From Cryomorphaceae bacterium (lineage in GTDB: Bacteria > Bacteroidota > Bacteroidia > Flavobacteriales_D > SKUL01), in NCBI GenBank assembly GCA_007695365.1, contig REDV01000050.1:1-42820 (forward strand): DNA of 42,820 nt, written 5' to 3'. Position 1 is the stretch's first letter, and each line of letters opens with the position of its first letter. Positions 16,437-21,156 of this stretch are shown piece by piece. A program made the position numbers and the translations under genes. The notes below the pieces were generated by a model. That model had not been told where the DNA came from. It saw only the letters and a list, made by a program, of their open reading frames with translations, and searched no databases.

Positions 16437-16763
16437 ATGGATTTGACAAAAATCAATGCCGGAGAAAATTTGTTCAAGGATGCTGATTTCGGCCTGGCCA
16501 TGCAGTGGCTGCAAACCCTTGTAGAGGATTTGACGGAAGAGGAAGGCTGGCACTTGCTGATGAAGATTTACAACGAGGGCTTTACAGAAGACCAAAAGGA
16601 CTCACTCAGAGAACGGAAAAGCAAAAACCCCCTGCTCGTTCCTGCAAACTTCATTACCATCATTAGTATGACCTTTACCGAAATCATTGCCCACAACCAA
16701 GGCACGCTCATGTCGTTTGGATATGAGCGAATAAAGGTAAGGTACTACATCGGAGCAGACTAG
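16437..16763 (+). CDS. Small uncharacterised protein
   Basis: 108 residues, no signal peptide or membrane segment. It has balanced protein-like composition (MDLTKINAGENLFKDADFGLAMQW, a helical DLTEEEGWHLLMKIYNEGF, and a C-terminal [13 protein letters not shown]). It fills the only gap between the helical-repeat gene and hppA, and its stop overlaps that of hppA by four bases in a convergent arrangement. I do not recognise a family. It may be cotranscribed with the gene at 14838. Confidence 0.6.
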   Translation: MDLTKINAGENLFKDADFGLAMQWLQTLVEDLTEEEGWHLLMKIYNEGFTEDQKDSLRERKSKNPLLVPANFITIISMTFTEIIAHNQGTLMSFGYERIKVRYYIGAD

Positions 16764-19552
16764 ATAATCTCCTGAGCGAACTGCAGCTCCATTTTGAGGG
16801 TTACCTCATCGTGAATGAGGTTGTTTCCCAGATCATCAAAAAAGCGGCCTGAGCCGTAACGAACGTTGAACAGGCTTCGGTCAAACTGCAGCTTTACACT
16901 GAATCGCAAGGATTCCTGGCCGTCATGGTGCGAGTGCACCTCTGCTGTTACAGGATGCGAAATGCCCCTGATATTCAAAGTGCCATCCAGTGAAAAGGAG
17001 TCGTCAAAAATGTTGCCTGACGTGCCGGTAGGACGAAAAACCGCCACAGGAAATTCTGTAACGTTAAAGAAATCGTCGGATACCAGGTGAGAGCGGAGTT
17101 TTTCATTGCGTCCGGCATCATCAATATCATCAACGGCAATACTATTCATGTCGATACGTACCACCCCGTCGGTAATCACTCCGTCTGTAACAGCTAAACG
17201 CCCATCCAGAACTTTCACGGTGCCATTGTGGTTACCGCCAACTTTGCTTGCATACCAGGCCACTTCTCCGCGGGTATAGTTGTAAGCTGAGGCCTCCCCC
17301 ACCACTTTCACATCGGCGGGAACCATGTTTGAGGTTTTCTTGTCCATTTTGAAAGAGGTTCCTGTACTGCCGGTTCTGTCGCTTGCAGGACTGTGATCAC
17401 CATGACCGTAAAACTGGCCGAGTAAGGGAGCAATCACCAGACCTACCAGGCAGGTAAGCTTGATGAGGATGTTCATTGAAGGGCCTGAAGTGTCTTTGAA
17501 GGGGTCTCCAACCGTATCACCGGTTACAGCGGCTTTATGTGCATCCGAGCCTTTGTAGGTCATTTCACCGTCAATCATCACACCGGCTTCAAACGATTTT
17601 TTGGCGTTATCCCAGGCGCCTCCGGCGTTGTTCTGGAAGATGGCCCAGAGCACACCCGATACGGTTACACCTGCCATGTAAGCACCCAGTGCTTCAGGGC
17701 CCATGATGAATCCTACCAATACGGGGGTAATAATGGTAATGGCACCCGGAAGCATCATTTCCTTGATGGCTGCATTGGTTGAGATCTCCACACATTTGGC
17801 GTACTCGGGTTTGCCGGTACCTTCCATAATGCCAGGTATTTCTTTGAACTGTCGACGTACTTCTTTCACCATTTCCATGGCAGCTTTACCCACCGAATTC
17901 ATGGCGAGAGCCGAGAATACCACGGGAATCATACCGCCGATAAACAGCGCCGCAAGCACATGTGCTTTAAAAATGTTGATACCGTCAATGCCTGTAAACA
18001 CGACATAAGCAGCGAAAAGCGCCAAGGCGGTAAGTGCTGCTGATGCGATGGCAAATCCTTTTCCGATGGCTGCGGTGGTGTTTCCTACCGAGTCCAGAAT
18101 GTCAGTTTTTTCACGAACCTCTTTGGGAAGGCCGCTCATCTCGGCAATACCTCCGGCGTTGTCGGCAATGGGTCCAAATGCATCAATGGCGAGTTGCATA
18201 GCGGTAGTGGCCATCATGGCCGAAGCGGCGATAGCTACACCGTAAAACCCTGCCAGTGCGTAGGCACCCCAGATTGCACCGGCAAAGAGCAGGATGGGAG
18301 CAAAGGTTGAGAGCATGCCTGTAGCAAGTCCTGCGATTACGTTTGTCGCGTGGCCGGTACTTGATTTTTGAACAATATCCATCACAGGCTTTTTACCCAT
18401 TCCGGTGTAGTATTCCGTAAAATAGGAAATGGCACCACCCACGGTGAGCCCTACGAGTACGGCACCAAACACGCGAATGGTATCAATGTCCTTCACGCCT
18501 TCACCGAAGTAGTAGATGCTGATGCTATCGGGCAGAATCAGGTCAATGGCAAAGTAAGCAGCTACAGCGGTGAGAATAATTGATCCCCAGTTTCCGCGGT
18601 TCAACGCACTTTGAACTTCTGCTTCTTTGGCGTTGTCGTCCTTGATTTTGATAACCAGGGTTCCGATAATACTGAAAATGATTCCTAACCCAGCAATGAT
18701 AAGTGGCAAAAGAATGGGGCTGATACCTCCAAAACCGTCGTCGGTAATTGAGCCACCCATGTCGCTAATCACATAGTTGCCGAGCACCATGGCCGCGAGT
18801 ACGGTAGCTACATAAGAACCGAAAAGGTCGGCACCCATACCGGCCACGTCTCCCACGTTGTCTCCCACGTTGTCTGCAATGGTAGCTGGGTTTCTGGGGT
18901 CATCCTCCGGAATACCGGCCTCTACCTTACCTACAAGGTCAGCGCCTACGTCGGCAGCTTTGGTGTAAATACCACCACCTACACGGGCAAACAGGGCAAT
19001 AGATTCAGCACCGAGTGAGAATCCGGCGAGCGCCTCCAGAACGATGGTCATGTCGTTGGTGTTGGTCCATTCGCCCCCCATAAGCCACGCAAAAAGCACG
19101 ATAAAAAGCACGCTCAGTCCAAATACAGCCAAACCTGCCACACCAAGTCCCATTACGGTACCTCCGTTGAAAGAAACAGCCAGTGCCTTCTTGAGGCTGG
19201 TTCTGGCTGCCTGCGTGGTACGCACATTGGCCGCAGTTGCGATTCGCATACCTATATTACCTGCAATGGCGCTAAAGGATGCGCCAATCACAAAAGCAAC
19301 TACAATAAACCAGTGCGAGTGGGGTACGAGAAAAGAAATCACCCCGAGCAAAATACCTGCAATCACCACAAAAATCGAGAGCACGCGGTACTCCGCAGCA
19401 AGAAACGCCATGGCTCCCTCGCGTATGTGCTTGGCCAGCCCCTTCATGTTATCGTCACCGGCATCCTGGGCGTTTACCCATTTTGCTTTTACAGCCATTA
19501 CAATAAGTCCGATGATGGCCATAAGCGGCACCAGGTACAAAAAGCTTGTCAT
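16760..19552 (-). CDS. hppA: Membrane-bound pyrophosphatase fused to a C-terminal YceI domain
   Basis: 930 residues. The first ~720 are a K+-dependent type membrane pyrophosphatase, which hydrolyses PPi to pump H+ or Na+. The pyrophosphate-binding motif [22 protein letters not shown], the second acidic motif [21 protein letters not shown] and the third ([10 protein letters not shown]-like [14 protein letters not shown]) are present, with about 16 membrane helices. The [10 protein letters not shown] sequence has Ala and Gly where K+-independent enzymes have Lys and Thr, which points to the K+-dependent class. The last ~195 residues (coded 16760-17347) are a YceI domain: [58 protein letters not shown]. 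YceI proteins are periplasmic isoprenoid/lipid binders, and the pyrophosphatase C-terminus faces the periplasm, so the fusion is topologically sound. No frameshift is visible at the join. Ion specificity cannot be read with certainty. Confidence 0.95.
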
Positions 19553-19588: not shown

Positions 19589-19596
19589 CAAAAATA
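19589..19596 (-). promoter_or_regulatory. -7 box for hppA
   Basis: Minus strand TATTTTTG, an exact TAnnTTTG match, 36 bases before the hppA ATG at 19552. No good -33 TTG is seen. The left target duplication of the miniature element begins 31 bases further upstream. Confidence 0.5.
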
Positions 19597-19698
19597 GACT
19601 TTTTCACCTATGTAAAGGATAACAGGCAAAGAACGCCAGGGCAAACGCATTTAGAATATCAATCCAGAAGCTGTCAATAAAGATACTTGCCGACGGCT

Positions 19699-19717
19699 TT
19701 ACCTCTTGAGAGGTATC
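19699..19717. repeat. Short palindrome inside the miniature element
   Basis: TACCTCT and AGAGGTA form a seven-base stem with a two-base centre (19700-19715). It may be a remnant of a transposon end or a simple hairpin. Confidence 0.5.
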
Positions 19718-19789
19718 AGGTTGGTGTCAACTTTTTTTTGGAACTTCACTTTAGTGTTGATATTCAATTTCTTTGCGCTCGTTGCGCCA

Positions 19790-19865
19790 GCCTGCCGCTG
19801 GCAGGCCTCCTATTGCGTTCCTTGCGGTTAAGAATTTTTACCGCCTGCCATGCCGCAGGCAGGCG
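19790..19865. repeat. Two GCCTGCC hairpins inside the miniature element
   Basis: The first hairpin is GCCTGCC-GCT-GGCAGGC (19790-19806). The second has arms CGCCTGCC (19842-19849) and GGCAGGCG (19858-19865) with an eight-base loop. Between and around them run degenerate TTGCG-type repeats (CTTTGCGCTCGTTGCGCC, ATTGCGTTCCTTGCGG). Strong GC hairpins like these may act as transcription or mRNA-end signals for the convergent side of hppA and pdhB. Confidence 0.7.
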
Positions 19866-20006
19866 CGAAGTACGCAAGGGAGACTTCTCATTCAAAATCA
19901 CTTTTTGTTGTTATTAAATCTAAACAGTTTTAAGTGCGTTTGCCCTGCAAAGAACGCGCTCAGGCGCTTTGAAACTTAACTGTGGGGTAACAGGGAAAAT
20001 TCCCGC

Positions 20007-20984
20007 TTACCGGTAGCTCACGTCTTTTGCTGCGCGTACCACGTCGCCCACATTGGGCATGGCTTCATCTATAAGCGAAGTAGAGAATGCAAAGGGCGTA
20101 TCCGCCATGGTTACTCTGCGGATGGGAGCGTCCAGATAATCGAATGCGTGACGTTGCACCCGGTAAGAAATTTCAGACGACACGGAAGATACCGGCCAGC
20201 TTTCTTCCAGAATTACAAGACGATTGGTCTTTTGTACTGATTTCACAATGGTCTTAATGTCCAGCGGGCGGATGGTGCGCAGGTCAATCAATTCGGCAGA
20301 GATACCCTCTTTCTGGAGTTCATCCACCGCCTGATGCGCGGTTTTCATGATTTTTCCGAACGAAACAATGGTCACATCACTCCCCTCGCGAACCACATCA
20401 GCCACGCCAATCGGAATCAGGTATTCGCCTTCCGGAATTTCACCTTTGTCGCCGTACATTTTTTCGGATTCCATCACCAAAACCGGGTCGTTGTCGCGAA
20501 TGGCAGACTTTAGCAGCCCCTTGGCGTCGCGTGGGTTGGAAGGAGTTACCACTTTAAGCCCCGGAAAGTGCGAGTACATAGCCTCAAAGCTCTGCGAGTG
20601 GGTGGCTGCGAGCTGGCCGGCCTGTCCGTTGGGGCCTCTAAACACTATGGGTACCCCAATCTGTCCGCCCGACATTTGCAGCATCTTGGCTGCACAGTTG
20701 ATAATCTGGTCAGCGGCAAGCACGGCAAAGTTCCACGTCATGTACTCCACAATGGGGCGCAGGCCATTCATTGCAGCTCCCACGGCAATTCCGGTAAAGC
20801 CCAGCTCAGCGATGGGAGTGTCAATAACGCGCCTGGGGCCGAATTCATCGAGCATTCCCTTACTGGCTTTGTAGGCACCGTTGTATTCGGCTACCTCTTC
20901 GCCCAAAAGAAAAACATTGGGATCTCTTCTCATTTCCTCGCTCATGGCCTCAGCCACAGCTTCTCTGAACTGTACCGTTCTCAT
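20007..20984 (-). CDS. pdhB: Pyruvate dehydrogenase E1 component, beta subunit
   Basis: 325 residues from the ATG at 20984, which begins the family N-terminus MRTVQFREAVAEAMSEEM; the open frame extends 45 codons further but across the promoter box at 21004. It is the E1-beta partner of the thiamine-diphosphate enzyme that decarboxylates pyruvate. Visible features are LLGEEVAEYNGAYKASKGM with the ThDP-contacting Glu, GLRPIVEYMTWNFA, FRGPNGQAGQLAATHSQSFEAMYSHFPGLKVV, and the C-terminal DLRTIRPLDIKTIVKSV and EESWPVSSVSSEI. The alpha subunit and E2 are not in the window; separate location of pdhA and pdhB is usual in some Bacteroidota. A branched-chain E1-beta is less likely given the sequence. 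Confidence 0.94.
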   Translation of the reverse strand: MRTVQFREAVAEAMSEEMRRDPNVFLLGEEVAEYNGAYKASKGMLDEFGPRRVIDTPIAELGFTGIAVGAAMNGLRPIVEYMTWNFAVLAADQIINCAAKMLQMSGGQIGVPIVFRGPNGQAGQLAATHSQSFEAMYSHFPGLKVVTPSNPRDAKGLLKSAIRDNDPVLVMESEKMYGDKGEIPEGEYLIPIGVADVVREGSDVTIVSFGKIMKTAHQAVDELQKEGISAELIDLRTIRPLDIKTIVKSVQKTNRLVILEESWPVSSVSSEISYRVQRHAFDYLDAPIRRVTMADTPFAFSTSLIDEAMPNVGDVVRAAKDVSYR

Positions 20985-21003
20985 GGTTTCTTGAATTGAA
21001 CCG

Positions 21004-21011
21004 CAAAAGTA
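21004..21011 (-). promoter_or_regulatory. -7 box for pdhB
   Basis: Minus strand TACTTTTG, exact match to TAnnTTTG, 19 bases before the ATG at 20984. It supports that start over the longer reading. Confidence 0.5.
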
Positions 21012-21156
21012 GAAAATATGCCTTGTAATAAGGTTGCAATGGTGATATTTCAATTGCCAAACAAAGCAAAGTTTCGGATGTTTTAAAGTGAAAACAACGA
21101 AGTGCGTCGCCCGACACATAAGACCAAAACCGAGGTTTCAGTTGCTGAAATTTGGT

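Follow-up and report, generated by a model that had tools for sequence, protein, structure and literature searches.

Results

Structure of the element located between pdhB and hppA

The window, i.e., the whole 42,820-nucleotide stretch of DNA that was analyzed, includes the genes pdhB and hppA, both encoded by the minus strand. A 311-bp element (19637-19947) is located between these two genes and has a perfect 10-bp duplication outside both of its ends. The hppA product comprises an H_PPase domain (residues 13-707) and a YceI-like domain (residues 771-925). The features of the region are the following:

16760-19552, minus strand: hppA, encoding a membrane pyrophosphatase with a YceI-like domain fused at the C-terminus (context)
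19589-19596, minus strand: hppA -7-like box TATTTTTG (Bacteroidota type), outside the element and conserved in the relative with the empty site
19627-19636, no strand assigned: left target-duplication copy CAAAGAACGC, identical to the right copy at 10/10 positions
19637-19947, no strand assigned: 311-bp MITE with ISAs1-type ends, defined from the window sequence and the family copies
19637-19653, plus strand: left terminal inverted repeat CAGGGCAAACGCATTTA; the element in G113:C565 has the same sequence at both ends and that in G233:C87 at one end
19770-19885, no strand assigned: G+C-rich core with imperfect dyad symmetry (CTTTGCGCTCGTTGCGCC ... CCTTGCGGTTAAG ... GGCAGGCGCGAAGTACGCAAGGG), defined from the alignment of copies
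19931-19947, minus strand: right terminal inverted repeat CAGGGCAAACGCACTTA, equal to the left repeat at 16/17 positions
19948-19957, no strand assigned: right target-duplication copy CAAAGAACGC
20007-21119, minus strand: pdhB, pyruvate dehydrogenase E1 beta subunit (context)

The first-pass annotation of this DNA had described a 10-bp direct repeat flanking a 311-base segment with 17-base inverted ends, 16 of 17 positions alike, and no transposase. These observations were reproduced: CAAAGAACGC occupies 19627-19636 and 19948-19957, the tips CAGGGCAAACGCATTTA and CAGGGCAAACGCACTTA agree at 16 of 17 positions when read inward, and no open reading frame of 100 amino acids is found inside the 311 bp. 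The window was scanned for perfect 10-bp direct repeats separated by 100-1500 bp and associated with inverted tips matching at 14 or more of 17 positions. The only site recovered was 19627-19957, and no comparable structure was present in 100 windows simulated with a first-order Markov model. The folding of the element is well above that of shuffled sequences (z of -5.0 as DNA and -6.8 as RNA from the minus strand), and it matched no Rfam family.

The left end had also been placed about 40 bases upstream of the hppA -7 box, and the left tip is indeed 40 bp upstream of TATTTTTG, which we take to be a Bacteroidota -7-like box of hppA. The left duplication lies 30 bp upstream of this box, the left tip is 85 bp away from the hppA start codon, and 49 bp separate the end of the right duplication from the pdhB stop codon.

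Copies of the element in the genus

The genome that includes the window (G000, referred to as the own genome) is a draft assembly of 3.52 Mb in 154 contigs, and the comparison set within the genus consisted of one other genome, G001. Recurrence of the ends elsewhere in the genome was one of the checks proposed on first pass, and the tip was found at many places of the own genome, where a DNA search with the element identified 26 matching stretches. Besides fragments, there are 15 full copies, eight in the own genome, with both ends within 256-382 bp, and seven in G001, which are 304-422 bp long. Thirteen of these 15 copies are flanked by 10-bp duplications that differ at 0-2 positions; by chance, about 4 in 10,000 copies would show two or fewer mismatches over 10 random bases. 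The duplications of seven of the eight copies in the own genome have 0, 1, 1, 1, 1, 1 and 2 mismatches, and those in G001 are perfect in five of seven cases and have one mismatch in another. The two full copies without a duplication, one in each genome, are C100:5179-5448 and that in G001:C48. No copy in the own genome other than that of the window has a perfect duplication, which suggests that the window copy belongs to the younger copies there. The perfect duplications found in G001 likewise suggest that the MITE moved in that lineage not long ago.

The copies are mostly located outside open frames or at frame edges. One-ended or partial matches were present in C111, C131 and C116 (at 19 kb). 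The end-like 12-mers in C52, C78 and other single sites had no partner end and were regarded as fortuitous or unrelated. Two near-identical 422-bp copies in G001:C84 and G001:C61 (L067 and L068) are located at different sites, have perfect 10-bp duplications, and are extended by an additional segment of about 100 bp; they are probably among the youngest copies of the genus.

Alignment of the 15 copies showed that the tips are conserved and that the left and right arms are common across the genus. The G+C-rich core with dyad symmetry varies by insertions and deletions among the aligned copies, being present in most of them and much altered or lost in those of 256-257 bp and 295 bp. Core-like sequences (CTTTGCG...TTGCGCC...CTTGCGGTTAA) without MITE ends were found in C24, C36, C98 and C142 of the own genome and, therefore, the core may represent a repeat in its own right. 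In these same four contigs, an intergenic module, AACCGCAAGG..GCGCAA.., stands alone at L249, L251, L256 and L263; it is sometimes repeated, with two or three copies within a few hundred bases, and includes CCTGCC/GGCAGG palindromes at some sites. This module is the core of most MITE copies.

The empty site

Inspection of relatives for an empty site, another check that had been proposed, gave a positive result in the congener. Contig G001:C300 matches the flanks of the window element at 89% and 84%, and the two matches meet with an 11-base overlap. Flanks rejoined with only one copy of the target aligned end to end with G001:C300, gapless at the junction, and the target CAAAGAACGC of the own genome corresponds to just one copy, CAAATAACGC, precisely at this position in G001:C300. 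The pdhB-hppA spacer is 454 bp long in the own genome and 132 bp long in G001; subtraction of 321 bp (the element plus one duplication) from 454 leaves 133 bp. Nineteen other relatives retain the gene pair, with spacers of 55-218 bp. Judging from the empty site in G001 and the short spacers in the relatives, the insertion is derived in this lineage and took place after the split from the congener. The -7-like box and the 74 bp between the hppA start codon and the duplication are unchanged or nearly so with respect to G001.

Complete ISAs1-family elements with the same ends

The 17-bp tip, with one mismatch or none, was found in 29 of 399 genomes of the order (Flavobacteriales, to judge by how the nearest relatives are named). 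The exact 17-mer had a sole carrier, the own genome, among 395 genomes sampled across the phylum, which indicates that the tip is a clade-specific mark rather than a common motif. The first-pass annotation had recommended looking for a complete element that combines these ends with a transposase, and such elements were present in two genomes of the order. The element in G113:C565 is 1257 bp long, matches the MITE tip at 17/17 positions at both ends, and encodes an intact transposase, a 367-amino acid protein with the domains PF13808 and PF01609, which scored 404 bits (cut-off, 70) against NCBIfam NF033564, the equivalog model of the ISAs1 family transposase. The element in G233:C87 is 1253 bp long, has ends that match at 17/17 and 15/17 positions, encodes an intact ISAs1 transposase, and is flanked on both sides by a perfect 10-bp duplication, GAATGCGGTG. 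The target duplication is 10 bp long in both the MITE and G233:C87, the latter being the one informative copy for the length produced by the partner. ISAs1 elements in general generate duplications of about 8-10 bp. A match to the ISAs1 model was found in 22 of the 399 genomes of the order, and eight of them are also tip carriers, compared to 1.6 expected (Fisher p = 5e-5, n = 399, with kinship ignored).

The similarity between the MITE and the 1253- and 1257-bp insertion sequences is confined to the tips (about 17-20 bp). No sign was found that the MITE descended from these insertion sequences by internal deletion, since only the tips matched in the alignment.

The genome G005, which belongs to another family of the order, has 56 places with the MITE tip at one mismatch or none, distributed over several contigs. 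One of its elements, 134 bp long (L130, 609-742), is flanked by the 10-bp duplication GAAGAGTTTG without mismatch, and an ISAs1 gene with a frameshift is located near such a tip. A larger MITE expansion with shorter elements likely occurred in G005.

The models NF033564, PF13808 and PF01609 had no match in the own genome, which is 99.98% complete by estimate, and no ISAs1 gene was found in G001 (81% complete by estimate). The MITE thus appears to be orphaned in both genomes. The autonomous partner was probably either lost from the own genome or is part of an unassembled repeat, the latter being possible since this genome is a draft of 154 contigs. As no co-resident partner was found in either genome, we infer cross-mobilization from the identity of the ends and the length of the duplication.

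Discussion

The structure located between pdhB and hppA is a genuine, well-formed MITE of the ISAs1 type that was inserted in this lineage. The earlier proposal of an intact non-autonomous transposable element is supported by the multicopy family, the consistent 10-bp duplications, the empty site, and the existence of a full partner element. Since its ends match those of a full ISAs1-family transposon of related bacteria, it is a real but ordinary mobile element.

A non-autonomous ISAs1-type miniature transposon, mobilized in trans and inserted after the split from the congener, is very probably the correct explanation. An ISAs1-family DDE transposase supplied in trans would recognize the 17-bp ends of the MITE and make a 10-bp staggered cut in the 133-bp pdhB-hppA spacer, which would result in the duplication of CAAAGAACGC. 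Insertion would have occurred once the lineage had separated from the congener, where the site is empty. The mobilizing ISAs1 element was probably lost from the own genome or is missing from the assembly and, in consequence, the window copy has probably become immobile. The element most likely affects the hppA core promoter little or not at all, and it may reduce read-through from pdhB. The element itself, its family, the duplications, the empty site, and an insertion sequence with matching ends and duplication length were demonstrated; the action of an ISAs1 transposase in trans, the loss of the partner, and the absence of a large effect on hppA are the components of this explanation that we infer.

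Compatible with this origin, the insertion could also be a regulatory acquisition retained by selection, in which the element controls hppA as an insulator, a terminator or an outward promoter. A change in hppA expression had been suggested on first pass as a possible result of the insertion. The element interrupts a pair of genes that stand in this order, with a short spacer, in about 20 relatives, an arrangement in which read-through would be possible. Transcription from pdhB would produce a strong RNA hairpin, and the strongly folded 311-nucleotide insert could lower the read-through. However, a scan of the region, whose scope leaves out Bacteroidota promoters, gave no sigma-70-type promoter or intrinsic terminator that exceeded chance, the -7-like box of hppA and its flanks are nearly unchanged in the empty-site relative, and there is no orthologous occupied site showing retention over time. 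As the box and the proximal sequence are intact, a large effect on hppA is not expected, and we consider retention by selection improbable. The effect on hppA would be of interest only if a change in expression proved true. Still less probable is that the MITE was kept as a carrier of its palindromic core, i.e., that the pair of ISAs1-type ends spread a regulatory hairpin across the intergenic regions of the genus and hppA was one recruited target.

The family of the mobilizing enzyme had been guessed on first pass to be IS4-type or related. The IS4 assignment did not stand, because the same 17-bp ends surround an ISAs1-family transposase in the complete elements. The guess was understandable since IS4 subgroups generate duplications of 8-13 bp, and ISH8 (10 bp) and IS4Sa (8-10 bp) combine duplications of matching length with ends starting with CA (PMC2266710). 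The ISAs1 and IS4-family transposases also share the DDE_Tnp_1 fold (PF01609). Nonetheless, the same-ended elements have PF13808 in addition to PF01609 and the 404-bit match is to the ISAs1 model (NF033564), with no IS4-family model listed, the own genome has zero PF01609 matches, and the searches revealed no element of IS4 type bounded by these ends. An IS4-family transposase, for example one of the subgroups IS4Sa or ISH8, was considered as the mobilizer on account of the 10-bp duplication and was rejected on the basis of the full ISAs1 elements with the same ends; we regard it as very unlikely.

The least credible explanation is that the element belongs to a REP-like family of extragenic palindromes spread by a Y1 transposase or by recombination, the flanking repeat being a coincidence: the strong G+C-rich palindrome of the core, also found elsewhere in the genome without MITE ends, and the strong folding of the element (z of -6.8 as RNA) would fit, but the consistent 10-bp duplications of 13 of the 15 copies, which REP-type elements are not known to generate, and the clean empty site refute this origin for the element as a whole, though not for the core module, and the ends are exactly shared with an ISAs1 element.

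The results document in the Flavobacteriales a MITE family that has ISAs1-type ends and consistent 10-bp duplications, together with its likely autonomous partner and a clean empty site. The family is a small test case for mobilization in trans by ISAs1 transposases and for the fate of MITEs once the partner is gone. No published MITE with ISAs1 ends was found in the literature searched, which does not prove that there is none. With respect to the ISAs1-family insertion sequences (NF033564; PF13808 and PF01609), the window MITE has the 17-bp ends of the 1253- and 1257-bp elements of the order and the 10-bp target duplication of the G233 copy; it differs in that it has no transposase and has only the tips (about 17-20 bp) in common with them. 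The MITEs and BrickBuilt of Porphyromonas gingivalis have IS5-family ends (PMC4596501) and are bacterial type I MITEs, the type moved by an insertion sequence whose terminal repeats they share. Like them, the window MITE is small, multicopy, devoid of open reading frames, mostly intergenic, and bounded by terminal inverted repeats shared with an insertion sequence. In contrast to the P. gingivalis elements, its partner insertion sequence was not found in the same genome, its ends are of the ISAs1 type, and its target duplication has a constant length of 10 bp.
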